A model generated the notes under the pieces. That model did not search any database. It saw only the letters and a list, made by a program, of their open reading frames with translations, and had not been told where the DNA came from. A program made the position numbers and the translations under genes. From a virus, in IMG/VR virus record IMGVR_UViG_3300032294_002320, positions 1 through 20,834 of that record: 20,834 bases of DNA. One strand, 5' to 3'. Shown piece by piece: positions 3,500-17,795 of this stretch. Every line of letters starts with the position of its first letter. The first letter of the stretch is position 1.

Positions 3500-3694
3500 A
3501 TGACAAATAAAAAGGATATGACATTAACCTCTGTGAAAGTACAGAGTGAGTTATTCGAGGATTTCAAGATTGCTTGTGTTAAGTACAAATTTTCTTTACA
3601 AAAACTTGCCGACCGCACTATTCATTTGTATCTTACAGATGAAGATTTTCGTAAAAAAGTTCATTCACACAACAACCTAGAAATAAAAAACTAA
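3500..3694 (+). CDS. Ribbon-helix-helix-like DNA-binding protein (64 aa)
   Basis: The 64-residue protein has a short polar N-terminus and a beta-strand-like segment (LTSVKVQSELFEDFKIA). Two amphipathic helices follow (FEDFKIACVKYKF and SLQKLADRTIHLYL), then an acidic-basic tail. This is the order of a MetJ/Arc-type ribbon-helix-helix repressor, where the strand inserts in the DNA major groove and the helices dimerise. It sits alone between two small gaps, at the junction of the replication block and the glycan locus, so it could regulate either. The fold assignment is by pattern only, and the target is unknown. Confidence 0.6.
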   Translation: MTNKKDMTLTSVKVQSELFEDFKIACVKYKFSLQKLADRTIHLYLTDEDFRKKVHSHNNLEIKN

Positions 3695-3701
3695 AAAACA
3701 C

Positions 3702-5138
3702 ATGAATTCAAGTTTTGCTTACTTACCTCCTGATAAGAGGAAGAAAATTATGCTTATTTGTGATGACATTAGAGTTCACTCTGGTGTAGCAACTGTAGGT
3801 AGAGAAATTGTAATCCATACTGCCCAACATTTTAATTGGGTAAATATTGGAGGAGCTATTAAACATCCTGATAATGGAAAACGTTTTGATTTATCACAAT
3901 CAACAAACGATACTACAGGATTAACAGATACATCTGTTACTTTATATCCTGTTGATGAGTATGGTAATCCTGATATTTTGAGACAACTTATCAAAATCGA
4001 GAAACCAGATGCAATTATGTTAATTACTGATCCTCGTTATTTTGTTTGGTTGTTTATGATGGAAAACGAAATCCGTAGAACAATCCCTATTACTTACTTG
4101 AACATTTGGGATGATTACCCAGCACCTTTATATAACAAACCATTCTATGAGGCCTGTGATTTGTTGATGGGTATTTCAAAACAAACAGTAAATATTAATA
4201 GATTAGTTTTAGGAGATGCTGCCGATAGTAGAATTCTTAAGTACATTCCTCACGGACTAAATCATGATATTTTTAAACCTTTAGATAAAAATGATTCTAC
4301 TTTAAAGGAATTTAAAAAACAATTATTTAAAGGTAAAGAATATGATTTTGCTTTATTGTTTAATTCAAGAAACATCAGACGTAAACAGATTCCAGATACA
4401 CTTTTAGCATACAGAATTTTTATTGATCAATTACCTATTGAACAAGCTAAAAAATGTTGTTTAGTACTCCATACAGAACGAGTTAACGAACATGGTACTG
4501 ATTTGGATGCAGTGATTGAATTGTTACTAAATGGTGAACAGTATAATGTTATCTTTACTGATGCTAGATTTGATAACGGACAAATGAACATGTTGTATAA
4601 TAGTACTGATGCTCAGATTTTGTTAACATCTAATGAGGGTTGGGGATTAAGTTTAACTGAAGCTATTTTAGCTGGTAGACCTATTATTGCTAATGTAACA
4701 GGTGGTATGCAGGATCAAATGAGATTTGAAGACGAAAATGGAAACTGGTTCACCCCATCTCCAGAAGTACCTTCAAACCATAGAGGTACTTATAAAAAAC
4801 ATGGTAAGTGGGCTTTCCCAGTATACCCAACATCACGTTCAATTGTTGGTTCACCTCCAACACCATATATTTTTGATGACAGGTGTGAGGCAGAAGATGC
4901 AGCTAAACAAATTATGAATGTTTACAATTTGTCTCCCGAAGAACGTGCTGAATTAGGTTTAGCCGGTAGAGAATGGGCTATTAGTGATGAAGCAGGATTT
5001 ACAGGTGATCATCAAGGTAAAAGAGTAATAGAGGCATTCACCCAGTTATTTGAAACTTGGAAACCAAGAGAAAAATACGAATTAATCAATACAAACGAAG
5101 TTAAAGATAGAGTTATAAACCATAAATTGTTATATTAA
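3702..5138 (+). CDS. GT-B glycosyltransferase (GT4-like), 478 aa
   Basis: This has the layout of a retaining GT-B glycosyltransferase. The N-terminal Rossmann domain begins KKIMLICDDIRVHSGVATVG, with the glycine-containing acceptor-side loop. The C-terminal nucleotide-sugar domain contains NEGWGLSLTEAILAGRPIIA with the E-x7-E pair at E312 and E320, and then a GG turn (NVTGG). GT4-family enzymes transfer a sugar from an NDP-sugar, with the second Glu contacting the donor ribose. There is no signal peptide or membrane segment, so it acts in the cytoplasm. It opens the glycan locus, and its stop overlaps the next start by one base (TAATG). Donor and acceptor are unknown. Confidence 0.82.
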   Translation: MNSSFAYLPPDKRKKIMLICDDIRVHSGVATVGREIVIHTAQHFNWVNIGGAIKHPDNGKRFDLSQSTNDTTGLTDTSVTLYPVDEYGNPDILRQLIKIEKPDAIMLITDPRYFVWLFMMENEIRRTIPITYLNIWDDYPAPLYNKPFYEACDLLMGISKQTVNINRLVLGDAADSRILKYIPHGLNHDIFKPLDKNDSTLKEFKKQLFKGKEYDFALLFNSRNIRRKQIPDTLLAYRIFIDQLPIEQAKKCCLVLHTERVNEHGTDLDAVIELLLNGEQYNVIFTDARFDNGQMNMLYNSTDAQILLTSNEGWGLSLTEAILAGRPIIANVTGGMQDQMRFEDENGNWFTPSPEVPSNHRGTYKKHGKWAFPVYPTSRSIVGSPPTPYIFDDRCEAEDAAKQIMNVYNLSPEERAELGLAGREWAISDEAGFTGDHQGKRVIEAFTQLFETWKPREKYELINTNEVKDRVINHKLLY

Positions 5139-6445
5139 TGAAACCATTATTTATTATAAGTTGCCCTTTTGACACCTACAGTGGCTACGGTGCTCGTTCA
5201 AGAGATTTAGTTAAAGCCATTATTGAAACAGATAAATACGAGGTAAAACTCTTATCTCAAAGATGGGGTATCACACCTTTTGGGTTTTGTGATGCTAATC
5301 CCGAGTGGTCATTTTTAATGGATCATGCTTTAACATCCCCCCAATTACCTAAACAACCAGAAATTTGGATGCAGATTACAGTACCAAATGAGTTCCAACC
5401 TATTGGGAAATTTAATATTGGTTGTACAGCAGGCATTGAAAGTAATGTTTGTCCTGGAGATTGGATTGAAGGTATTAATAGAATGAATTTAACCTTTGTT
5501 TCATCACATCATTCTAAAAAAGTATTTGAAGAATCTAAATTTGAAAGAAGAAACAAACAAACTAATGCTTTAGAAGGTGAAGTTGTTTTAGAAAAACCAG
5601 TTGAAGTATTATTTGAAGGTGCCGATACAGATGTCTATAAAGTAATTGAATCACACCAAATCAAAAATATTAACCTAGATTCTATTAAAGAAAAATTTGC
5701 TTACTTGTTTGTAGGTCATTGGATGGAAGGTGAATTGGGTGAGGATAGAAAAAATGTAGGTTTATTAGTTAAAGCATTTTTCGAAACATTTAAAAATAAA
5801 GCCAATAAACCAGCCTTAATCTTAAAAACAGCTCAAGTAGGTTCATCTTATTATGATAGAGAAGAGCTTTTAAAGAAAATCAAGAAAATTAAAAAATCAG
5901 TAGGTTCAGATAACTTACCAAACGTTTATTTACTGTGTGGTGATTTTAGTGATTCAGAAATGAATGAAATATATAATCATCCTAAAGTAAAAGCGATGGT
6001 TAATTTAACTAAAGGTGAAGGCTATGGACGTCCATTACTTGAATTTACTTTAACTAAAAAGCCTTTGATTACAACAGGTTGGAGTGGACATATGGACTTT
6101 TTGAATCCCGAATTTACTAATTTGTTAGGTGGTACACTAACTCCAGTACACCCAAGTACTAAAAATCAATTCTTGATTACAGACTCAAGATGGTTTTCAC
6201 CAGATTTAGGACAAGTAGGTTTTTATTTAAAAGATGTATTTGAAAACTATAAAAACTATACTGAAAAAGCAAAACGTCAAGCCTTTAAATCTAAAAACGA
6301 ATTTAGTTGGAATAAAATGGCCGATAAAGTAGATGAATTGCTTACTCAATATGTTCCTGAGTTTCCTCAAGAGGTAGAACTTAAACTACCAGCAATGAAG
6401 AAAATTGAAATACCAAAACTTAAAAAATTAAATACAAATGGATAA
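5138..6445 (+). CDS. GT-B glycosyltransferase (GT4-like), 435 aa
   Basis: This is a second GT-B enzyme. The N-terminus (KPLFIISCPFDTYSGYGARS) gives the first Rossmann strand and a Gly-rich loop. The donor domain contains NLTKGEGYGRPLLEFTLTKK, with the E-x7-E pair at E294 and E302, followed by TTGWSGHMDFL. The Arg before the second Glu (GYGRPLLE) differs from the upstream enzyme, so the two are not recent duplicates. It is predicted to be cytoplasmic. It overlaps the previous gene by 1 nt and the next by 8 nt. The C-terminal tail is Lys/Pro-rich (LPAMKKIEIPKLKKL). Substrates are unknown. Confidence 0.8.
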   Translation: MKPLFIISCPFDTYSGYGARSRDLVKAIIETDKYEVKLLSQRWGITPFGFCDANPEWSFLMDHALTSPQLPKQPEIWMQITVPNEFQPIGKFNIGCTAGIESNVCPGDWIEGINRMNLTFVSSHHSKKVFEESKFERRNKQTNALEGEVVLEKPVEVLFEGADTDVYKVIESHQIKNINLDSIKEKFAYLFVGHWMEGELGEDRKNVGLLVKAFFETFKNKANKPALILKTAQVGSSYYDREELLKKIKKIKKSVGSDNLPNVYLLCGDFSDSEMNEIYNHPKVKAMVNLTKGEGYGRPLLEFTLTKKPLITTGWSGHMDFLNPEFTNLLGGTLTPVHPSTKNQFLITDSRWFSPDLGQVGFYLKDVFENYKNYTEKAKRQAFKSKNEFSWNKMADKVDELLTQYVPEFPQEVELKLPAMKKIEIPKLKKLNTNG

Positions 6446-6893
6446 TCTAATTAATTGTACTCGATGTGGTTCTGATGCTTGTTATGTAGATGAAGTAAAC
6501 CAGGACATTAAAACATATTTTTGTTATGGATGTGGTTTTCAAACCAATTCTTTAATGAAGGAAGGTGAAGAATTTTATGAGCAACAAATAGCTATACTAC
6601 CAGAACTTTATAAGGATTTATTCCATAAAGATAAAGATGGTAAGTTTTGGATGCCTTCAACAGTAAACATTCCAACTCAAGGAATGATTTTTGCTAATGG
6701 AACTAGTGCTTTTAGTTGGAATTGGGCAGCAGTAAAAGCAGTAAAGGTAAGTGAAGAAGACAAAACTAAATATCCAATTCCAGGTAAAGAAGGACAATTC
6801 TATGAATGGAGAATGGATATGTCTACTCTTCAAGAGTTTCCTGAGCGTGAATATATGGAAGCCCTTTCGTACATTGGAGTACTACCAGAATGA
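6438..6893 (+). CDS. Zinc-ribbon protein of unknown function (151 aa)
   Basis: The N-terminus holds a four-cysteine zinc ribbon (C7, C10, C29, C32), in the pattern CTRCGSDACY then CYGCGF. The remaining 110 residues are rich in aromatics and acidic residues (FWMPSTVNIPTQGMIF, SWNWAAVKAVKV, FYEWRMDM) and have no enzyme motif I recognise. The protein lies inside the glycosyltransferase array and is coupled to the next gene by ATGA. Proteins with this architecture occur in T4-like marine phages as conserved hypotheticals, to my recollection. It could be a nucleic-acid or protein adaptor, but no function is claimed. Confidence 0.7.
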   Translation: MDNLINCTRCGSDACYVDEVNQDIKTYFCYGCGFQTNSLMKEGEEFYEQQIAILPELYKDLFHKDKDGKFWMPSTVNIPTQGMIFANGTSAFSWNWAAVKAVKVSEEDKTKYPIPGKEGQFYEWRMDMSTLQEFPEREYMEALSYIGVLPE

Positions 6894-7498
6894 TTAGTAT
6901 AGCAATAACGGTTTGTAACGAACATAAGGAGTTAGAGACTCTACTTGATTATCTTCAAGAACGAGCTCTATCTCCTGAGTACGAAATTATTATCCAAATT
7001 GATAAGGATAATCATACCGATGATGTTATTGGGGTAATTGTAAATAGAGGTATTAAACACTACTTTTTCCCATTAAACAAAGATTTTGCTGCCTATAAAA
7101 ACGAATTAATCAAACACTGTTCTGGAGAATATATCTTCCAAGTAGATGCTGACGAAATACCTAGTGTTGATTTACTTAACATGTTACCTGGTATTTTAGA
7201 GGATAATCCTGATGTGGATGTATACTTAGTTCCTCGGATTAATACCGTAAGTGGTCTCACCGAGGAACACATCCAAAAATGGAAATGGAACGTTGAAGGT
7301 GATAGGATTAATTTTCCTGATTACCAGTGGAGAATATACAAAAATATTCCTACAATAAAATGGATAAATAAAGTACACGAACGATTGGATGGGTTTAAAA
7401 CTTATAGTACATTACCCCCACAAGATGAATTTTGTTTACTTCATCCAAAGACAATTGAACGACAAGAAAAACAAAACAATTTTTACAACACGTTATGA
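6890..7498 (+). CDS. GT2-like (GT-A fold) glycosyltransferase, 202 aa
   Basis: The start MISIAITVCNEHKELETLLDY is the typical first strand and loop of family 2 glycosyltransferases. YIFQVDADEIPS supplies the DxD metal/nucleotide-sugar motif at D86 and D88. A later RINFPDYQWRIYKN and KVHERLDGF segment is like the acceptor region of GT2 enzymes related to LPS core transferases. At 202 residues it is short, but similar compact GT2 enzymes exist. No membrane segment is visible. It overlaps both neighbours by 4 nt. Confidence 0.78.
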   Translation: MISIAITVCNEHKELETLLDYLQERALSPEYEIIIQIDKDNHTDDVIGVIVNRGIKHYFFPLNKDFAAYKNELIKHCSGEYIFQVDADEIPSVDLLNMLPGILEDNPDVDVYLVPRINTVSGLTEEHIQKWKWNVEGDRINFPDYQWRIYKNIPTIKWINKVHERLDGFKTYSTLPPQDEFCLLHPKTIERQEKQNNFYNTL

Positions 7499-7935
7499 TA
7501 TATTGGTTTACAGGACAACCCGGACACGGTAAAACAGTTTTAGCAGCTGCTTTTAAAGAGTATTTAAATAATGATTGTTTCCATATTTATGGAGATGATA
7601 TTCGAGAAATTTTTAATAATAAAGACTACTCGGAGGCTGGTCGTAGAAAAAATATTGAGTTGGCTCAACATTTAGCTCATTTTTTATATAGAAAAGGACA
7701 AAACGTTGTTGTATCTTTAGTTTCACCTTATAAAGATCAAAGAGATGCTTTTAAAGATAAACTAGGAAAAGGTATTTTGGAATATTATATTCACACAACA
7801 GATATTAGAGGTAGGGAAGATTTTCATGTTAGTAACTATGAAGCACCCACAGAAAATTTTTGTGATATAAATACAACAAATATTTCACCATTAGATAGTT
7901 TAAAACAAGTTATTAGTTATGCAAAATTGGGATAA
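7495..7935 (+). CDS. cysC-like: Adenylylsulfate kinase-like P-loop kinase
   Basis: This 146-residue P-loop kinase has Walker A at residues 7-14 (GQPGHGKT), then IYGDDIREIF (GDDxR, 33-37), RRKNIELAQHLAHFL (50-64) and VVSLVSPYKDQRDAF (72-86). These correspond to the DGDxxR, NIRR-type and SFISPYxxxR motifs of APS kinase (CysC), which converts APS plus ATP to PAPS, the sulfate donor for sulfotransferases. It is shorter than typical CysC (about 200 aa), with a compact C-terminus. No sulfotransferase is in the window. CysC homologues can act on other substrates: the Campylobacter capsule enzyme Cj1415 phosphorylates CDP-phosphoramidate. The natural substrate is therefore open. It overlaps the next gene by 17 nt. 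Confidence 0.75.
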   Translation: MIYWFTGQPGHGKTVLAAAFKEYLNNDCFHIYGDDIREIFNNKDYSEAGRRKNIELAQHLAHFLYRKGQNVVVSLVSPYKDQRDAFKDKLGKGILEYYIHTTDIRGREDFHVSNYEAPTENFCDINTTNISPLDSLKQVISYAKLG

Positions 7936-8314
7936 AAAATTACACGTAGAATCATCATTGCCGGCTAAACCAGGTCAACACGCTATGTTTGTAGGTAGAT
8001 GGCAACCACTGCATACAGGACACCAAGAACTATTTAAACGGGCAATGGATGAAGATAAGAATGTCTTGATTTGTATTAGAGACATTCAACCCGATGAAAA
8101 AAATCCATTTACAGCTCAACAAGTACTAGAAAACATTACGGAGTTTTATCAAAATGAACCTCGAGTTAAAGTAATGGTTATTCCTGATATTTGTTCAATT
8201 GAATTTGGACGTGGTGTTGGTTATGATATTATTGAACACGTTCCACCTACAGCTATTGGAGAAATTTCAGCTACTAAAATTAGGGAACAATTGAGAAATG
8301 AAGGTAAGTTATAA
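7919..8314 (+). CDS. HxGH nucleotidyltransferase (NadM/cytidylyltransferase-like)
   Basis: This 131-residue protein has FVGRWQPLHTGHQELFKRA, with the nucleotidyltransferase HxGH motif at 32-35, and ISATKIREQL with the second motif (ISxTxxR, 116-122). It also contains NPFTAQQVLENI (62-73), which resembles the NPFTAxER segment of NadM nicotinamide-nucleotide adenylyltransferases. A central FGRGVGYDIIEHV follows. The enzyme should transfer a nucleotidyl group from NTP to a phosphate or sulfate group. The same active-site fold is used in ATP sulfurylase. Its position between the APS-kinase-like and DUF2061 genes hints at a shared pathway. The substrate is not determined. Confidence 0.75.
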   Translation: MQNWDKKLHVESSLPAKPGQHAMFVGRWQPLHTGHQELFKRAMDEDKNVLICIRDIQPDEKNPFTAQQVLENITEFYQNEPRVKVMVIPDICSIEFGRGVGYDIIEHVPPTAIGEISATKIREQLRNEGKL

Positions 8315-8534
8315 AAGACACTTAGCCAAAACTATTACTTGGCGGGTTGTAGGAACAATTGATACTATCCTATTAAGTTGGTTGATTACAGGTAATTTAA
8401 CTGTTGGTCTAACTATTGGTGGTGTTGAAGTTATGTCGAAAATGATTTTATACTTTATACACGAAAGAGTATGGTATAAATGGGTTAAATTTGGATTAAA
8501 AAAAGAAAATGAAACTAAAAGTAGCTCACTTTAA
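8298..8534 (+). CDS. DUF2061 small membrane protein
   Basis: This 78-residue protein has the recognisable DUF2061 pattern. An N-terminal RHLAKTITWRVVGTIDTILLSW begins the first membrane helix, with the family's K-T/S-x-TWR-x-x-(A/G)-T-x-D signature. A central turn (ITGNLTVGLTIGGVEVMSK) leads to a second helix, KMILYFIHERVWYKW. DUF2061 proteins are small inner-membrane proteins of unknown activity, and in bacteria they occur near sulfate-assimilation genes, to my knowledge. Its placement here, 17 nt overlapped with a nucleotidyltransferase and next but one to a CysC-like kinase, preserves that association in a phage. Confidence 0.82.
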   Translation: MKVSYKRHLAKTITWRVVGTIDTILLSWLITGNLTVGLTIGGVEVMSKMILYFIHERVWYKWVKFGLKKENETKSSSL

Positions 8535-9321
8535 TGAACAAGTTTTTAAAGATAAACTTCAACATTTATCTCACTTAGACTTTTCATTATTTATAGAAAC
8601 CGCTCCTCAATCACAAGATGAGTTGTCGGACATAAACATTATTTCATTCCAGGAACCAAATGAATACTTTGGACTACACGATTGGGTTATTAAAAACCAA
8701 CATATATTTTCAGTTATTTTAACTCAAAGTGATAAGGTATTAAACAATTGTGAAAATGCTACTTATCAACCTTTTGGACATACTTGGTTAAAACCAGACC
8801 AATATGAAAAGGAACATGATAAAGAATTTAAACTAGCCCATTTACAAGGTAAATTACTTAAAACACACGGTCATTCTTTAAGACATGAGGTAACAGCCAG
8901 ACAAAATGAATTTAGTATTCTTACTAAGTTTTATGAAACGTACGGGGATAGAAGTAATATTGAGGATGCTCGTTTAGGCAAAGAATTTATATTTGGAGAC
9001 TCACAATTTGGAGTAGTAATTGAAAATACATCTCATAGAGGTTATTTCACTGAAAAAATATTAGATTGTTTTTTATTAAAGACAATTCCGATTTACTGGG
9101 GTTGTTCGAACATAGGGGATTATTTTGATATAGACGGTATTATAACGTTTAATAACGTAGATGATTTAATATATAAGACAAACCAATTAAATGAGAATTA
9201 TTACGAAAATAGAAAAGAAATAATTGAAAAAAATTGGAAATTGGCTTTAGAGTACGTAGATTACGAGCAAAATATAGTTAACACAATCGCAAACATTTTT
9301 AAACACAATAAATTAATATGA
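8509..9321 (+). CDS. GT10 (alpha-1,3-fucosyltransferase-like) glycosyltransferase
   Basis: This 270-residue protein has the C-terminal donor-binding signature of GT10 enzymes: FGVVIENTSHRGYFTEKILD (167-186), followed by KTIPIYWGCSNIGDYF (191-206). The conserved E172-N173 and T181-E182-K183 correspond to the GDP-fucose binding region of bacterial alpha-1,3-fucosyltransferases. The N-terminal half is variable, as usual for the acceptor domain. No membrane anchor is present. Donors other than GDP-fucose are possible for a phage enzyme. The gene overlaps the DUF2061 gene by 26 nt and the 3-dehydrase gene by 4 nt, placing it directly before the sugar-biosynthesis trio. Confidence 0.75.
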   Translation: MKLKVAHFNEQVFKDKLQHLSHLDFSLFIETAPQSQDELSDINIISFQEPNEYFGLHDWVIKNQHIFSVILTQSDKVLNNCENATYQPFGHTWLKPDQYEKEHDKEFKLAHLQGKLLKTHGHSLRHEVTARQNEFSILTKFYETYGDRSNIEDARLGKEFIFGDSQFGVVIENTSHRGYFTEKILDCFLLKTIPIYWGCSNIGDYFDIDGIITFNNVDDLIYKTNQLNENYYENRKEIIEKNWKLALEYVDYEQNIVNTIANIFKHNKLI

Positions 9322-10460
9322 GAAAAATATGGTACGCTCCTTATAAGTTTGAATCTTATGGGGAAGAAGAAATTAAAGCTGTAGAAGAATCACTACGTTC
9401 TGGATGGCTTGGAGGACAAGGTCCCAAATCAGTTGAATTTGAAGAAAAAATTGCTAAACGTTTTGGAAAAAAGTATGGTGTATTTGTTAATTCAGGTTCA
9501 TCAGCTTGTTTGCTAGCTATTGCTTCTTTAGATTTACCTAAAGGATGTAGTATTATTACCCCTGCTTGTACATTTTCAACTACATTAGCCCCTATTATTC
9601 AATTAGGTTACAAACCTAAATTTGTAGATGTAGGACTAAATGATTATGTAGCTGATATTGCTCAAGTAGTTGAAGCTATTACTCCTGATGTAAAAGCAAT
9701 TATGTTACCTAATTTGATTGGTAATAAACCAGATTGGAAACGTTTGAAACAAGAAATTAAATTGTTAGGCAGAACAGATATTATTTTGATTGAAGATTCA
9801 GCTGATACGATTACTGAAACTCCAGAATCAGATGTTGCTACAACTAGTTTTTATGCTTCACACGTTATTACAGCTGGTGGTGTAGGCGGTATGGTAATGT
9901 TTAACGATAAAAAACACGTCACTAAGTGTCTACAATACAGAGACTGGGGTAGGTTGGGTGATGATTCGGAAATTATGGATGATCGTTTTAATCACATTGT
10001 AGACGGTATTCCTTATGACCATAAGTTTTTGTATTCTGTATTAGGATACCATATGAAAGCTTGTGAAATGAATGCTGCTTTTGGATTAGTTCAATTGCAC
10101 CGTTTTGAAAAATTCTCACAAATTAGAAGAGAAAATATTGAACGTTATATTGAAAACCTTCAAGGTGTTGGTGATCTAATTCTACCAGATGATTCAATTC
10201 AACCAAACTGGTTAGCTATTCCTTTACAAACCAAAAGTCGTTTTGAATTGCTTAACTTCCTAGAAGATAATAACATTCAAACACGAGTAACATTTGCTGG
10301 AAACGTAACACGTCACCCTGTTTATAGAGAATATTTGCAAGATTTTAAAAACGCAGATACTATTATGAAAAATGGTTTCTTGTTAGGTGCACACCACGGA
10401 ATGACTATTGAGGATGTAGATTACGTTTGCGATAAAATTAAAGAATTTTTTAATAAATAA
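9318..10460 (+). CDS. DegT-fold nucleotide-sugar 3-dehydrase (ColD/RfbH-like), active-site His
   Basis: This is a 380-residue PLP-fold enzyme. In DegT/ArnB aminotransferases the PLP-binding Lys sits in SFxxxK. Here the motif reads SFYASHVITAGG, with His182 (codon CAC at 9861-9863) at that position. His at this site defines the 3-dehydrases ColD (GDP-4-keto-6-deoxymannose) and RfbH/E1 (CDP-4-keto-6-deoxyglucose), which remove the C3 hydroxyl. Other RfbH-like blocks are LQYRDWGR (206-212), IPYDHKFLYSVLGYHMKACE (231-250) and TFAGNVTRHPVY (325-336). D160 is the PLP ring-nitrogen partner. The RfbH [2Fe-2S] cysteines are missing, and the length fits ColD (388 aa), which regenerates PMP with glutamate. 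The product would be a 4-keto-3,6-dideoxy sugar. Whether the carrier is CDP, GDP or dTDP cannot be told. Confidence 0.82.
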   Translation: MRKIWYAPYKFESYGEEEIKAVEESLRSGWLGGQGPKSVEFEEKIAKRFGKKYGVFVNSGSSACLLAIASLDLPKGCSIITPACTFSTTLAPIIQLGYKPKFVDVGLNDYVADIAQVVEAITPDVKAIMLPNLIGNKPDWKRLKQEIKLLGRTDIILIEDSADTITETPESDVATTSFYASHVITAGGVGGMVMFNDKKHVTKCLQYRDWGRLGDDSEIMDDRFNHIVDGIPYDHKFLYSVLGYHMKACEMNAAFGLVQLHRFEKFSQIRRENIERYIENLQGVGDLILPDDSIQPNWLAIPLQTKSRFELLNFLEDNNIQTRVTFAGNVTRHPVYREYLQDFKNADTIMKNGFLLGAHHGMTIEDVDYVCDKIKEFFNK

Positions 10461-10463
10461 ACT

Positions 10464-12251
10464 ATGATTAAAGTAAGTGATGTTGTTGCTGAGTTTTTAA
10501 AGCATAAACAAATAGATACTGTATTTGGTATTATTGGTTCGGCTAATTCTCATATTTTTGATTCAATTCAAAATCTAGGATACACAAAAATTATTTGTAC
10601 ACATCACGAACAAGCTGCAATTATGGCAATGGCTGCTTATTACCGAGCATCAGGTAAATTATCAGCAGCCATTGTAACTGCAGGTGCAGGAGCTAGTAAT
10701 GCTATTACTGGGGTTGTAAGCAACTGGGCTGATTCTATTCCTGGATTTATTATTTCAGGACAAGAACCAAGTACATACCTTGATATTCATAAAAATTTAA
10801 GAATGTATGGTACTCAAGGATTCAGTGCTTATGAAATGGTGAAAAATGTTACTAAATATAGTAACGTATTAACTAATCCAAATACAATTCAAACCGAGTT
10901 AGAAACACTATATAATATTAGTGTATCTGGAAGACCAGGTCCAACATGGCTAGATATTCCTTTAGACTCACAAGCAAAAAAGGTTAAATTTAAAGGATTT
11001 AGTAATTATTCTAATAAATCTTTAAGAACAACAGACGCTTACAACTATGCTGATGATATTATTAAGTTAATAAATCAATCAAAACGTCCTCTTGTATTAG
11101 GTGGAATGGGGATCAAGTTAAGTAGTGCTAAAGATAAATTTAAAAAGTTTATTAACACAACTCAATTACCTACTACACTAAGCTGGTCAGGAATTGATTT
11201 ATTACCTACCAATCACAGTTGTAATTATGGAAGATTTGGTTTATATGGTCAACGAGCAGCTAATTTTATAGCTCAAAATGCCGATTTAATTATAGTTTTA
11301 GGAAGCAGATTAGCTTTACCTCAAGTAGGATACGATTTTAGTCAATTTGCTAGAGGAGCTAAAATTGTAGTTGTTGATATTGATGAATTAGAATTAAATA
11401 AATACGAGCGAACCATTAAATACAATCACAATGTAAGTATTGTTTTAGACAAATTATTAGAGAATGTTATTAAAATTAATCCTGATATTAGTGAATGGAA
11501 AACTAAATGTGATTACTATCGTAGTGAATATCCTATAATCAATGATGATTATAAAGATGACAAGTATGTTAATTCATATAGTTTTGTAAACAAACTAACC
11601 CAACAATTATCAGATGACGAAATTATAGTTACTGATATGGGTACAGGTTTATTAAGTGGTCATCAATCAGGTCATTTAAAAGAAAACCAAACCATGTTTA
11701 CAAGTCAAGGTTTAGGTGAAATGGGTGTTGGTTTACCTTATGCTATTGGGGCAGCGTTTGCTGAACCAAATAAACAAATTACTTGTTTGAATTGTGATGG
11801 AGGTATAATGATGAACCTTCAAGAACTACAAACTATAGTACAACATAATCTCCCAGTTAAAATATTCATTTTTAATAATGATGGGTATTTAATGATTAAA
11901 CATACTCAAAAATTATTCTTTAATGGACGTTATAACTCCGTAGATTCTAATACAGGAATCCAACTACCAGAATTTGAAAGAATTGCTTATGGTTTTAAAA
12001 TTCCTTATATTAGAATAGATAAAATTGAGGACTTAGATGGAATGGACTTAAATTATAACTCTCCTGTTATTATTGAGGTGTTTATGGATCCTGAACAAAA
12101 TTTTATACCTAAAGTAAAAGGTGTAATATTAGAAGATGAATCAATTTTTGCCCCACCACTAGAGGAAATGTCTCCATTGTTGCCTTTTGAAACTATTCAA
12201 AAAGAAATGATAGTGGATATTAGTGAAAAATCCAAACGAATTAAAAGATGA
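10464..12251 (+). CDS. ThDP-dependent enzyme, acetolactate synthase/YerE-like
   Basis: This 595-residue protein has the three domains of the acetohydroxyacid synthase family. The PYR domain carries catalytic Glu49 (THHEQAAIMAMAAYYRASG). The central domain contains KRPLVLGGMGIKL and ADLIIVLGSRL. The PP domain contains GEMGVGLPYAIGAAF and the ThDP/Mg site CDGG...FNN (D445 to N472). Canonical GDG is CDG here. No regulatory-subunit gene is nearby, and the gene is flanked by a 3-dehydrase and a sugar reductase. YerE of Yersinia is a homologue that transfers an acetyl unit from pyruvate to C4 of CDP-4-keto-3,6-dideoxyglucose, giving a branched sugar. A YerE-like role therefore fits better than amino-acid synthesis, but this is inference. 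Confidence 0.8.
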   Translation: MIKVSDVVAEFLKHKQIDTVFGIIGSANSHIFDSIQNLGYTKIICTHHEQAAIMAMAAYYRASGKLSAAIVTAGAGASNAITGVVSNWADSIPGFIISGQEPSTYLDIHKNLRMYGTQGFSAYEMVKNVTKYSNVLTNPNTIQTELETLYNISVSGRPGPTWLDIPLDSQAKKVKFKGFSNYSNKSLRTTDAYNYADDIIKLINQSKRPLVLGGMGIKLSSAKDKFKKFINTTQLPTTLSWSGIDLLPTNHSCNYGRFGLYGQRAANFIAQNADLIIVLGSRLALPQVGYDFSQFARGAKIVVVDIDELELNKYERTIKYNHNVSIVLDKLLENVIKINPDISEWKTKCDYYRSEYPIINDDYKDDKYVNSYSFVNKLTQQLSDDEIIVTDMGTGLLSGHQSGHLKENQTMFTSQGLGEMGVGLPYAIGAAFAEPNKQITCLNCDGGIMMNLQELQTIVQHNLPVKIFIFNNDGYLMIKHTQKLFFNGRYNSVDSNTGIQLPEFERIAYGFKIPYIRIDKIEDLDGMDLNYNSPVIIEVFMDPEQNFIPKVKGVILEDESIFAPPLEEMSPLLPFETIQKEMIVDISEKSKRIKR

Positions 12252-13018
12252 GAGTACTAATTACAGGAGCAAATGGTTATATTGGAAAATCTTTAACTAA
12301 TGCTTTAAAAAATGAATATGAAGTAACTACTTTAACCAGACAAAACGCAGATTTAACTGATGCTGAACAGGTTAAAGAATATTTTAAAGATAAATATTTT
12401 GATGTAGTTATTCACTGTGCTATTGAAGGTGGATATAGATTAGAAAAAGATGGACCTGAGGTAATAGACAGTAACTTAAAAATGTATTATAATCTTTTAG
12501 ATAATAAAACACATTTCAATAAATTATTTCATTTTGGGTCAGGAGCAGAAAAACAAGATACATTTTATGGCCTAAGTAAAAAAGTAATCAACGAGTCAAT
12601 CCAGAATAAAGATAACTTTCACAATATAAGAATATTTGCTGTATTTGATGAAAATGAAAATGACGCTAGATTTGTTAAAACAAATATTCGTAAGTATATT
12701 GACAAAGAAGATATAGAAATTTTTATAAATAAGTATATGGATTTCTTTTATATGGAAGACTTTATTACCTTAATAAAATATTGTATAATGCAGGATAATT
12801 TACCTAAAACAATTGAATGTTGTTATAATTATAAAACTACTTTATATAATATAGCTGAGATTATTAATAGTTTAGAAAATCATAAAGTGTCTATAAGAAT
12901 ACATAACTGGAAGTTTGGAGAACCATTTAATGGAGAGTTTGTAGATTTAGGATTAGAATTTATTGGATTAGAACAAGGGATAAAAAATGTTTATAATAAA
13001 TTAAAAAATGAATATTAA
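12248..13018 (+). CDS. NAD(P)-dependent sugar epimerase/reductase (extended SDR), YerF-like candidate
   Basis: This 256-residue extended short-chain dehydrogenase starts MRVLITGANGYIGKSL, with the GxxGxxG dinucleotide-binding motif at 7-13. FGSGAEKQDTFYGLSKK gives the Ser98 / Y107-xxx-K111 catalytic set. DVVIHCA (52-58) is the usual strand before the substrate site. Family members oxidise, epimerise or reduce nucleotide sugars. The size is near that of dTDP-4-dehydrorhamnose reductases and smaller than 4,6-dehydratases (over 300 aa). Coupled by ATGA to the ThDP enzyme, it is the natural candidate for reducing the keto group of the branched product, as YerF does in yersiniose synthesis. The exact reaction is not determined. 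Confidence 0.75.
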   Translation: MRVLITGANGYIGKSLTNALKNEYEVTTLTRQNADLTDAEQVKEYFKDKYFDVVIHCAIEGGYRLEKDGPEVIDSNLKMYYNLLDNKTHFNKLFHFGSGAEKQDTFYGLSKKVINESIQNKDNFHNIRIFAVFDENENDARFVKTNIRKYIDKEDIEIFINKYMDFFYMEDFITLIKYCIMQDNLPKTIECCYNYKTTLYNIAEIINSLENHKVSIRIHNWKFGEPFNGEFVDLGLEFIGLEQGIKNVYNKLKNEY

Positions 13019-13961
13019 GCTTTTACTTCATATAATGCCTTGGGACATTGATTATGCTTTGCTAACCTTTACCCAATTAAAAAAATCAAAATACCATTTG
13101 CCAAAAGATGTAAATGTAACTATAGATGTTGAATTAAACCTAACAAGTTATTTATATAATTGGGAAGAAAGTAAATTACCTAAAGATTATTTTATTGATA
13201 AATTTGAAACCTTACTTTTATTATTAAAAGACTATAAAGTAAACAAATTTATATACGATGGAAATGAATTATATGGACATTTAAACCACCAAAGAAAAAT
13301 CATATCTCCAGAAGTAGATTATTATATGATAGCTTGTCCCGATACTTATTTTAGTGAATATGCTTTAGCTTATTTAATTGAATCTGTAAAGCAAATTAAC
13401 AATAAGTACTTTGTAGTTACTCCTCAAGTATCTAAAGTAGGTGATCCTGATTGGGATAAAATTACAAATCCTAGATATTTAAATATTCCATACACTGATT
13501 ACTTAAAAACAGATGTTTATGATCTTAGATATGAAAGTAAAATATCAGACGAGGAAATAAATTTAAAACTTTTAGGTAAAAGTAAGTTTGCTGGGTGGTT
13601 TGATCTTTATAGTAAAGCATTTTATGAGGAATTATGTCCTGTCCAAGAGGATTGGATAGGATATGGTCCTTGGGATCATTACTCAATGATGGTAGCTGAT
13701 TTTGTTAAACATCATGGAGTGGATTTTCAACAATATCTTCTTCAAGGAGAAACAATTTGGATGTACCCTTCAGGTCCATTACTAGAAAATGGAGCAAATG
13801 GATTTACACAATATTATAGAGATAGACTAAAAACAAACGACATTCCAAATCAAAGAAAAACATTTGAATCTAAATTTCAAGAATACATAAACAAAGGTAT
13901 TGAACAACTAAAAATAAAAAATATTATTTCAAAAACAGTTTACGCATCATTTCAATCATGA
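13008..13961 (+). CDS. Probable GT-A-like glycosyltransferase, 317 aa
   Basis: I do not recognise a named family, but the layout is glycosyltransferase-like. The N-terminus is MNIKLLLHIMPWDIDYALLT. A mid-protein VDYYMIACPDTYF resembles a GT-A strand ending in an acidic motif. Later come KFAGWFDLYSKAFYEELCP and EDWIGYGPWDHYSMM, resembling the acceptor/acidic region of GT-A enzymes (the E-D...W/G-D pattern of galactosyl- and GT2-type enzymes). No membrane segment is present. It overlaps the SDR gene by 11 nt and is coupled by ATGA to another GT2 enzyme, so context supports a glycan role. Confidence 0.55.
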   Translation: MNIKLLLHIMPWDIDYALLTFTQLKKSKYHLPKDVNVTIDVELNLTSYLYNWEESKLPKDYFIDKFETLLLLLKDYKVNKFIYDGNELYGHLNHQRKIISPEVDYYMIACPDTYFSEYALAYLIESVKQINNKYFVVTPQVSKVGDPDWDKITNPRYLNIPYTDYLKTDVYDLRYESKISDEEINLKLLGKSKFAGWFDLYSKAFYEELCPVQEDWIGYGPWDHYSMMVADFVKHHGVDFQQYLLQGETIWMYPSGPLLENGANGFTQYYRDRLKTNDIPNQRKTFESKFQEYINKGIEQLKIKNIISKTVYASFQS

Positions 13962-14884
13962 TATCATTAATTATTCCAACCAACAAGACAAATTCAGAGT
14001 ATACCTCTAACATTGTAAAAAATATTAGAGAAATTTATCCTGACGAAAATCAAGTAGAAATTATAGTATCCGAAGACGATACTGTAACTATGGGTGTTAA
14101 TTATAATAACGCTGTAGCTAAAGCAAACGGTGAAAAAATCATTTTATTACACAATGACATGGTTATTAAACCAGGTTTTGTAGAACAAATGGATAAAGAC
14201 ATTGTTAAAGGTAGAATTACAGCTTATACTAGAGTAGAACCACCTACATTCCCAAATGAATTCCCAGGTAAAAAAGTGGTTGATTGTGGAGTTGATTTAG
14301 CATCTTTTAACTACCAAAAGTTTTTAGATATTAAAATTGAACATGATCTAATAGAACCAGTTGGTCCATTTGGTGGTGCTCAAATGTTTTTTGGTTGCAT
14401 GAAAGAAGATTATTTAGGTATTGATGGTTATACTTTTAGATTATTCTGTGAGGATGATGATTTACACTTAAGACATAAGTTGGCAGGCTATGAACAAAAA
14501 GTAAGTTCAGCTCATGTTTATCACTTTGTTAGTAAAACATCTCGTGTAGGTGATTATCAATCTATAGAACAAGAATCAAATAGAAAATTTGTTAAAAAAT
14601 GGGGTTTTAGAAAATCTCACCATAATGTAGTATATAATAAAAAAATTATTATTAATGTACCATTAGATGAAAATACAGTAGAAGTTTTAAAATGTTGGTT
14701 TAATGAAGGAGAAGATATTATTGTTGAAGTAAATAATAAATTTACTGAAGATGATTATAATTATATCCAACAACTAAATGATATTATAAAAGAAACAAAC
14801 GATACTGGGGTTTTTGAATTAGGAAACTTAAAAGTAACAGTTAATTCTTTAGAAGAACAACAAAATAAATATATTAGACTATGA
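13958..14884 (+). CDS. GT2-family glycosyltransferase, 308 aa
   Basis: The start MISLIIPTNKTNSEY is the first GT2 strand. IILLHNDMVIKPGF has the metal-binding HND motif with D67. GPFGGAQMFFGCMKEDYLG and FCEDDDLHLRHKLAGY (about 163-178) give the acceptor-side glycine-rich stretch and the catalytic acidic cluster, as in rhamnosyl/galactosyl-type GT2 enzymes. About 90 residues at the C-terminus (from KKWGFRKS onward) form an extension with no motif I know. It closes the glycan locus and overlaps a small gene by 4 nt. Confidence 0.82.
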   Translation: MISLIIPTNKTNSEYTSNIVKNIREIYPDENQVEIIVSEDDTVTMGVNYNNAVAKANGEKIILLHNDMVIKPGFVEQMDKDIVKGRITAYTRVEPPTFPNEFPGKKVVDCGVDLASFNYQKFLDIKIEHDLIEPVGPFGGAQMFFGCMKEDYLGIDGYTFRLFCEDDDLHLRHKLAGYEQKVSSAHVYHFVSKTSRVGDYQSIEQESNRKFVKKWGFRKSHHNVVYNKKIIINVPLDENTVEVLKCWFNEGEDIIVEVNNKFTEDDYNYIQQLNDIIKETNDTGVFELGNLKVTVNSLEEQQNKYIRL

Positions 14885-16941: not shown

Positions 16942-17259
16942 ATGAAAAATTTAATCACAGAAGAGTTCAAGACAAAGTTCAAAACAGCGTTTGCTCGTTT
17001 TATGAACATCACAATTGTAGCATCAACTTTGATTGCTGGTTTTGGATTGGGTTACTACTTTCAGGAATTGAAAATGAAACCACAAGCAGTAAACGAAACT
17101 ATCTTGAATAAAGAAGTTAGAATTGCTGTTGACTCAGAAAACAAACTAATAATTATGGACCGCAAAACAGGTCAATATATTATTTATAGTGATTCTGTAG
17201 GTAGTGCTATCTTTAAAATGTATGCAGCTAAAATTGCATCACCTGTATCAACTAAATAA
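16942..17259 (+). CDS. Single-pass membrane protein (105 aa)
   Basis: The open frame can be extended upstream to a TTG at 16894, but that codon is the promoter -33 element, so the ATG at 16942 is used, giving 105 residues. A basic, helical N-terminus (KNLITEEFKTKFKTAFARFM) precedes one membrane helix at about residues 21-40 (MNITIVASTLIAGFGLGYYF). About 65 residues follow that look periplasmic or soluble (EVRIAVDSENKLIIMDRKTG). The single N-terminal anchor could suggest a lysis or virion-assembly role, but this is not supported by a motif. It is followed, 1 nt overlapped, by a membrane-anchored lytic transglycosylase, and the two probably share the promoter at 16894. Confidence 0.7.
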   Translation: MKNLITEEFKTKFKTAFARFMNITIVASTLIAGFGLGYYFQELKMKPQAVNETILNKEVRIAVDSENKLIIMDRKTGQYIIYSDSVGSAIFKMYAAKIASPVSTK

Positions 17260-17795
17260 TGAAAACTATGTTTGCTAAATTAAGAAATTGGTATTTTATT
17301 ATCATCTTAGGAATTATTACTTTAATGTATTTTAATATTAATAGAAAGATTGATGAATTCGAAGACCGTTTAGATTTAGCAACAGGAACTATCTCACTCC
17401 AGATGTACGAGTCAATTGAACACTGGAGTGATAGTTTCAACATTCCTAAACACATTGCCTATAACGTAGCTTATCTTGAAACACGTTATAGAGGACCATT
17501 TGATTTTGATTATAATCCATACCAGAAATCATATGCTGGTGCTGTTGGTCCAATGCAAATTATTACTAGATGGGCTAGACCATATGTTAGAAAACGTTTG
17601 AGTGAAAAAGAATTAAAAACTAATATTGATTTGAACGTTAAAATTAGTATGCAAATGCTTCGTAAATGGCATTCAATTCACAGAGACTGGACATTGGCTT
17701 GTGGTGCATATAATTCAGGTAGTCCAATTAGAAATGATTATGCTGTTTATGCAACTAGCAATAAAGATTATAAAAGTAAATGGGAGAGACTTTAA
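17259..17795 (+). CDS. Membrane-anchored SLT-type lytic transglycosylase
   Basis: This 178-residue protein has an N-terminal membrane helix (WYFIIILGIITLMYFNI, about 11-27) after a basic start, so the enzyme domain should lie outside the cytoplasmic membrane. The SLT (GH23) signature set is present: catalytic Glu in YLETRY (E74), AGAVGPMQI (93-101) and ACGAYNSGS (147-155). SLT enzymes cleave the peptidoglycan glycan backbone, forming 1,6-anhydro ends. In phages such anchored forms serve lysis or local wall opening during DNA entry. It is downstream of the single-pass membrane protein gene, in the same promoter unit. A second in-frame Met (residue 4) is an alternative start. Confidence 0.85.
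   Translation: MKTMFAKLRNWYFIIILGIITLMYFNINRKIDEFEDRLDLATGTISLQMYESIEHWSDSFNIPKHIAYNVAYLETRYRGPFDFDYNPYQKSYAGAVGPMQIITRWARPYVRKRLSEKELKTNIDLNVKISMQMLRKWHSIHRDWTLACGAYNSGSPIRNDYAVYATSNKDYKSKWERL

Follow-up and report, generated by a model that had tools for sequence, protein, structure and literature searches.

Branched-chain sugars built with a carbon-grafting enzyme occur in bacterial surface polysaccharides and antibiotics, and to our knowledge such grafting routes have so far been known only from bacteria. The yersiniose A pathway of Yersinia pseudotuberculosis uses a 3-dehydrase (E1/RfbH), a thiamine diphosphate (ThDP)-dependent carboligase (YerE) and a short-chain dehydrogenase/reductase (SDR; YerF), in this logical order. 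In the erwiniose pathway of Pectobacterium atrosepticum, erwiniose is made by ErwE, which prefers 4-hydroxy-2-oxo acids (PMC12247030). The YerE-like enzymes are the sole members of the decarboxylase superfamily known to join isolated ketones, and one of them, JanthE, has the rare CDG motif, not GDG, and couples 2-oxo acids with ketones that are not activated (PMC12247030). JanthE comes from Janthinobacterium sp. HH01 (PDB entries 8rph, 8rpi and 8rpj; the first and last are assigned to it in PMC12188165), and its physiological substrate is not established (PMC12188165). Here we describe a viral locus of comparable content on the IMG/VR record IMGVR_UViG_3300032294_002320. The window, i.e., the whole record of 20,834 bases, is a single fragment of a T4-like phage. 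Three genes on its plus strand, at 9318-13018, encode a 3-dehydrase, a YerE-like carboligase and an extended SDR, and together they quite probably form a phage-encoded sugar-branching pathway whose product would be a 3,6-dideoxy sugar with a carbon branch.

The middle gene (10464-12251, plus strand, 595 aa) encodes a ThDP/FAD enzyme with the three ThDP domains (TPP_enzyme N, M and C at 92, 96 and 112 bits). Its best match was JanthE (8rph, 554 bits), far ahead of the next entries at 245 and 238 bits, the latter being an acetohydroxyacid synthase (AHAS). The homology to JanthE is full-length with 43% identity. A CDG motif is located at residues 444–446, and the residues implicated in binding cofactor or substrate in JanthE (H51, Y268, P293, Y297, M406, C458 and K567) are all kept in the phage clade to which the window enzyme belongs, hereafter the window clade. 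Thus the two enzymes have in common the motif, the Met406/Cys458 pair, Y297, K567 and the FAD-stabilising Y268/P293. The window enzyme differs in being phage-borne, in having no acetaldehyde dehydrogenase or aldolase beside it, in the changes A409G and Y436V (JanthE numbering), and in a Thr in place of V121, which is also found in most aldolase-bearing phages. In the trees, the window enzyme was placed in the JanthE/CDG clade (100/100), and the AHAS enzymes formed a separate clade (100/100).

One alternative considered was that the phage uses the ThDP enzyme as an acetolactate synthase to raise branched-chain amino acid synthesis during infection, the neighbouring sugar genes being unrelated. 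Automatic models do label the protein as acetolactate synthase-like. However, its TIGR00118 score of 338 bits is below the equivalog cut-off of 538, it carries the CDG motif and lies outside the AHAS (IlvB/IlvG) clade, no regulatory subunit gene is adjacent, and the gene has a fixed place between the 3-dehydrase and the SDR. We therefore rejected an AHAS identity, which is extremely unlikely. On sequence grounds, 10464-12251 is a YerE-like, putatively ketone-accepting carboligase of the CDG subgroup and not an acetolactate synthase. The original prediction of a sugar carboligase thus withstood the phylogeny against AHAS, in which no grouping with the amino-acid enzymes was found, and its comparison with YerE holds at the level of the family, although the closest characterised enzyme is JanthE and not YerE. 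Entry 5ahk could not be identified from papers as PpYerE and was treated only as the acetolactate synthase II that it is named.

The first gene (9318-10460, plus strand, 380 aa) encodes a pyridoxal/pyridoxamine phosphate (PLP/PMP)-type enzyme of the DegT/DnrJ/EryC1 family (PF01041, 236 bits). Among proteins of known structure, it is most similar in sequence to Yersinia E1 (3bcx; 187 bits, 34% identity), followed by ColD of E. coli, a GDP-4-keto-6-deoxymannose 3-dehydratase (144 bits, about 31%). The Lys that carries PLP in the DegT family is replaced by His182 (SFYASHVIT), and this His was found in all phage homologues examined. A His in place of the catalytic Lys is the mark of the E1/RfbH and ColD type enzymes. 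The phage protein resembles both types in its DegT fold, in this His, and in 30–34% identity over nearly the whole length. It is nearer to E1 in sequence, whereas the Fe-S cysteines of E1 are all absent from it, as in ColD; in other phages of the group, the RfbH has these cysteines. The score against NF011936 (RfbH) was 252 bits with a cut-off of 423, which places the protein outside RfbH/E1 proper. The fold comparison between ColD and E1 gave no discrimination, with all DegT enzymes tied at Z scores of 37–40. Since it has no Fe-S ligands, no E3 partner is expected, and the product of 9318-10460 should be an RfbH relative that works without an E3 reductase, like ColD.

The third gene (12248-13018, plus strand, 256 aa) encodes an extended SDR (PF01370 Epimerase, 73 bits) with a GxxGxxG motif and Y107-x3-K111, in which Y107 and K111 are invariant. 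The structure model (pLDDT 94) has the fold of nucleoside diphosphate (NDP)-sugar epimerases and reductases with Z of about 25; many epimerases and reductases tied at Z of 23–25, so that the comparison gives the fold class only. More specific information came from the gene neighbourhoods. A viral search anchored on the SDR gave 387 relatives, and the linkage was counted in the best 80. Seventy-five of these loci encode either a YerE-like enzyme or a split transketolase nearby, and a further four have two proteins, of 209 and 178 residues, with matches to E1_dh and Transket_pyr, a pair of the E1-alpha/beta type (Pfam checked on two). A carboligase-type enzyme thus accompanied the SDR in 79 of the best 80 loci, the exception being L195. 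Because this SDR is found almost only with carboligases, it is tied to carbon branching, as fits a branch-ketone reductase, and we propose this function from the generic extended-SDR features together with the co-occurrence.

When the viral search was anchored on the 3-dehydrase instead, 212 contigs had a relative. In the kept set of this search, a carboligase and a window-type SDR were both present on 31 contigs, and an RmlD-like reductase was present on 50 contigs that had neither of the two. The latter arrangement, in which this 3-dehydrase is paired with an RmlD-like reductase and a carboligase is missing, would agree with the synthesis of a plain 3,6-dideoxyhexose of the colitose or abequose type, in which case the ThDP gene of the window would be an accidental passenger. 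This is very improbable, because the window has no RmlD-like reductase, its SDR type occurs almost only with carboligases, and the ThDP gene is under strong purifying selection. All three genes were found at the predicted positions on the plus strand, overlapping or 3 bp apart, in one run with putative glycosyltransferase genes, and their order is kept in eight other viral contigs. Against four of these eight, dN/dS was 0.07–0.15 for the 3-dehydrase, 0.06–0.15 for the carboligase and 0.12–0.28 for the SDR. All three genes are under purifying selection, and the conserved order and these low values therefore indicate that they are functional.

Gene content, family placement, conserved active-site residues, purifying selection and an almost strict linkage of the SDR to carboligases were observed directly; in the reaction scheme deduced from them, the three products would act as follows. 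The Fe-S-free 3-dehydrase would remove O3 from a host-supplied NDP-4-keto-6-deoxyhexose by PMP-dependent, ColD-like chemistry. The YerE-like ThDP/FAD enzyme would decarboxylate a 2-oxo acid and add the acyl group to the C4 ketone, so that C4 becomes a tertiary alcohol carrying an acyl branch, and the SDR would then reduce the ketone of the branch. The neighbouring glycosyltransferases would pass the sugar to an acceptor, which may be the virion, DNA or a host glycan. Thymidylate-synthase-family genes, which could belong to a DNA-modification route or be ordinary ThyA, are present in some relatives. In comparison with the yersiniose A pathway, the logic is the same, while the phage 3-dehydrase has no Fe-S ligands, the carboligase belongs to the CDG subgroup, pyruvate as the donor is only a candidate, and the complete CDP-yersiniose gene set is not present, as neither RfbF nor RfbG was found among the annotated open reading frames (ORFs) of the window. 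This agrees with the original prediction that the precursor enzymes are missing; the small cytidylyltransferase-like or ATP-sulfurylase-like protein at 7919-8314 is not an RfbF.

Several points weigh against this pathway. What the enzymes catalyse, and which nucleotide, acceptor and donor they use, is all deduced from the genes, and the co-occurrence counts given above come from related contigs, which are not independent, and should be read as a pattern. In addition, no 4,6-dehydratase was found in the window, and none scored over the cut-off on the 128-, 72- and 48-kb contigs of the window clade; the sugar acceptor therefore should be made by host enzymes or by genes in a part of the genome outside these contigs. 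The same three contigs have no 4-hydroxy-2-oxovalerate aldolase, though most relatives have one.

This last point bears on the length of the branch. An acylating acetaldehyde dehydrogenase and a 4-hydroxy-2-oxovalerate aldolase were encoded within about 8 kb of the carboligase in 71 of 80 bacterial relatives. The same pair was present in 18 of the 29 viral loci with a CDG-type or related enzyme, in most cases preceded by an RmlB-like dehydratase. On the two viral loci where they were checked, the family assignments scored above curated cut-offs. The two enzymes can turn acetyl-CoA and pyruvate into 4-hydroxy-2-oxovalerate. Decarboxylative transfer from this donor would give a four-carbon branch, the pattern of erwiniose, and the gene context in the relatives therefore points to a five-carbon 2-oxo acid donor and a branch of the erwiniose type. 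A plain two-carbon yersiniose as a settled fact was rejected in view of this context. The branching pathway itself gains support from a bacterial relative located in a complete RfbF-RfbG-RfbH cluster: in Mucilaginibacter, these three genes, identified by curated models over their cut-offs, surround the CDG enzyme, the dehydrogenase and the aldolase. The nucleotide may be CDP, dTDP or GDP, and the clues to it differ, as the phage relatives are accompanied by the RmlB-like dehydratase and the bacterial ones by CDP-glucose enzymes. As for the bacterial loci themselves (L031–L110, e.g., L104 at 4007-14117), JanthE-type enzymes almost always lie near the aldolase and the acetaldehyde dehydrogenase. 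L031, from a Flavobacteriaceae metagenome-assembled genome, is the only Bacteroidota entry within the phage carboligase clade, and its placement could be a clue to the host range or to an exchange of genes, or result from an error in binning.

The window clade is nested among the aldolase-bearing relatives (100* in the tree). As it carries no donor genes, its donor should be either a common metabolite (pyruvate, C2) or a compound made by the host. Erwiniose-like synthesis, with host-supplied 4-hydroxy-2-oxovalerate and a 1,3-dihydroxybutyl group at C4, gains support from the aldolase and dehydrogenase context of the CDG subgroup, from the reported donor preference of ErwE, and from the fact that JanthE takes 4-hydroxy-2-oxovalerate (with benzaldehyde; PMC12188165). 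Whole Bacteroidota clusters could provide both donor and acceptor. Nevertheless, this product is less likely than not for the window, because the window-clade contigs of up to 128 kb have no such aldolase, in contrast to the aldolase-bearing relatives for which a hydroxylated longer 2-oxo acid is expected, and the host may not make the donor. The strictly Yersinia-type product, with pyruvate as the donor and a two-carbon branch, is possible but somewhat doubtful. Pyruvate needs no aldolase, which matches the absence of the dehydrogenase and aldolase of the sister phages, and it is accepted by JanthE (PMC12188165). A409 and Y436 (positions 395 and 422 of the window enzyme) are conserved in the aldolase-bearing relatives and changed in the window clade only, and both probably lie near the active site, judging from their closeness along the chain to Met406 and the GEMG motif. 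A switch of the window clade to pyruvate and a two-carbon branch is therefore plausible. On the other hand, elsewhere the CDG family goes together with the aldolase and the dehydrogenase, the pocket positions singled out in the JanthE studies do not differ between the window clade and most aldolase-bearing phages, and JanthE makes less product from pyruvate (6 and 7) than from the best longer donors (up to 56 and 26; table in PMC12247030). For the donor of the window clade as such, we give an even chance to pyruvate or another common 2-oxo acid, with a short and mostly C2 branch; host-made 4-hydroxy-2-oxovalerate with a four-carbon erwiniose-type branch is a tentative second candidate, and any other donor is quite improbable. 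The claim of a phage route to a two-carbon-branched, CDP-linked 3,6-dideoxy sugar is accordingly kept for the C-branched route, on the pathway logic and the placement of the enzymes, while its two-carbon and CDP parts are possible.

The place of the carboligase proved to be variable. Across many phage contigs (L111–L189 and L190–L269), the slot between the 3-dehydrase and the SDR holds differing enzymes. They are a CDG enzyme alone, as in the window; an RmlB-like enzyme, a CDG enzyme, the dehydrogenase and the aldolase; a GDG enzyme with PanB; a GDG enzyme together with an HpcH-like aldolase, joined in some cases by an AroB-like cyclase; a split transketolase; or an E1-alpha/beta pair. Elsewhere, an RmlD-like reductase takes their place. 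Most decarboxylase-type cassettes other than that of the window bring a donor-making aldolase. Only three ThDP superfamilies, the decarboxylase, transketolase and aKADH2 superfamilies, are known to use ketones (PMC12247030), and each of them is represented in this slot. From these arrangements, it is rather likely that a large group of T4-like phages shares a modular branching locus, in which the genes for 3-dehydrase, SDR and glycosyltransferases frame an exchangeable C-C ligation cassette from the three superfamilies, and the YerE-like cassettes mostly bring an aldolase that makes the donor (4-hydroxy-2-oxovalerate aldolase, PanB or HpcH-like). Related phages would then display different branched sugars and swap them by recombination. 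The predicted parallel with Yersinia thus applies to the order of 3-dehydrase, ThDP enzyme and SDR, but the trio is one of several interchangeable arrangements and not a unique one. Several HpcH-type cassettes include an AroB-related sugar-phosphate cyclase (L114 at 11223-12272, L206, L207, L225 and L248), which suggests a cyclitol-like donor or acceptor. In a further cassette type (L224 at 3668-5274, L210, L235 and L216), DJ-1/PfpI, cupin-like and HAD-like proteins precede a GDG carboligase, and L216 also has a gene of the malate/L-lactate dehydrogenase family (Ldh_2).

Around the trio, glycosyltransferases were recognised at 3702-5138 and 5138-6445 (phrog_2170 glycosyltransferase, 56 and 72 bits), and family 2 glycosyltransferases at 6890-7498 (PF00535, 49.5 bits) and 13958-14884 (PF00535, 25.4 bits; cut-off 23.3), all on the plus strand. 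The immediate flanks, also on the plus strand, are weaker. The putative GT10-like glycosyltransferase gene at 8509-9321 scored 21 bits against PF00852, below the cut-off of 23.9, and the gene at 13008-13961, a possible sugar-transfer enzyme, had no Pfam or NCBIfam match; both show synteny, the former kept directly 5′ of the 3-dehydrase and the latter 3′ of the SDR in many phages with branching cassettes. The calls next to the trio, that at 13958-14884 included, are thus weaker than the prediction of flanking glycosyltransferases on both sides implied, and the clearer genes lie at 3702-7498. At 7495-8534, genes for APS (adenosine phosphosulfate)-kinase-like, ATP-sulfurylase/cytidylyltransferase-like and DUF2061 proteins lie beside the sugar genes, and in L113 (region 12272-13581) a protein that by eye looks like a sulfotransferase adjoins the APS-kinase-like gene. 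A sulfated glycan is possible from the APS-kinase-like and ATP-sulfurylase-like neighbours. The T4-like affiliation is seen in the T4-type clamp loader encoded in the window and in a Gp23-type capsid gene on the 128-kb contig that shares the locus; comparison of the clamp loader for host assignment gave only distant T4-like relatives with identities up to about 41%. A membrane-anchored protein at 17259-17795 resembles by eye a lytic transglycosylase (ETRYRGP...GAVGPMQI) and had no PHROG match.

In the annotated-phage collection, no record with a window-type carboligase gene was found, and all carboligase matches had about 30% identity or less. Several of them are bacterial or host-type ilvB genes; acetolactate synthase matches in records named as phages (e.g., AFYI01000003 and OR845443) include bacterial genome contigs and small fragments resembling host DNA carried over in phage preparations. 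Our literature searches for phage-encoded branching pathways gave nothing relevant. The sugar-branching pathway is well supported as a whole. As far as this collection and the searched papers show, it is new for phages, in line with the original remark that no characterised phage pathway of this type was known to its author. A 2025 review of ketone-using ThDP enzymes lists viruses among the unexplored sources (PMC12247030). The phage carboligases described here provide many new candidate biocatalysts for tertiary alcohols, and the gene context in bacteria and viruses together predicts that the natural donor of JanthE, an open question in the field, is 4-hydroxy-2-oxovalerate. If the proposed pathway and the exchange of its branch-forming step are true, these phages would diversify carbohydrate structure in a combinatorial manner, probably for the decoration of virions, DNA or the host surface.

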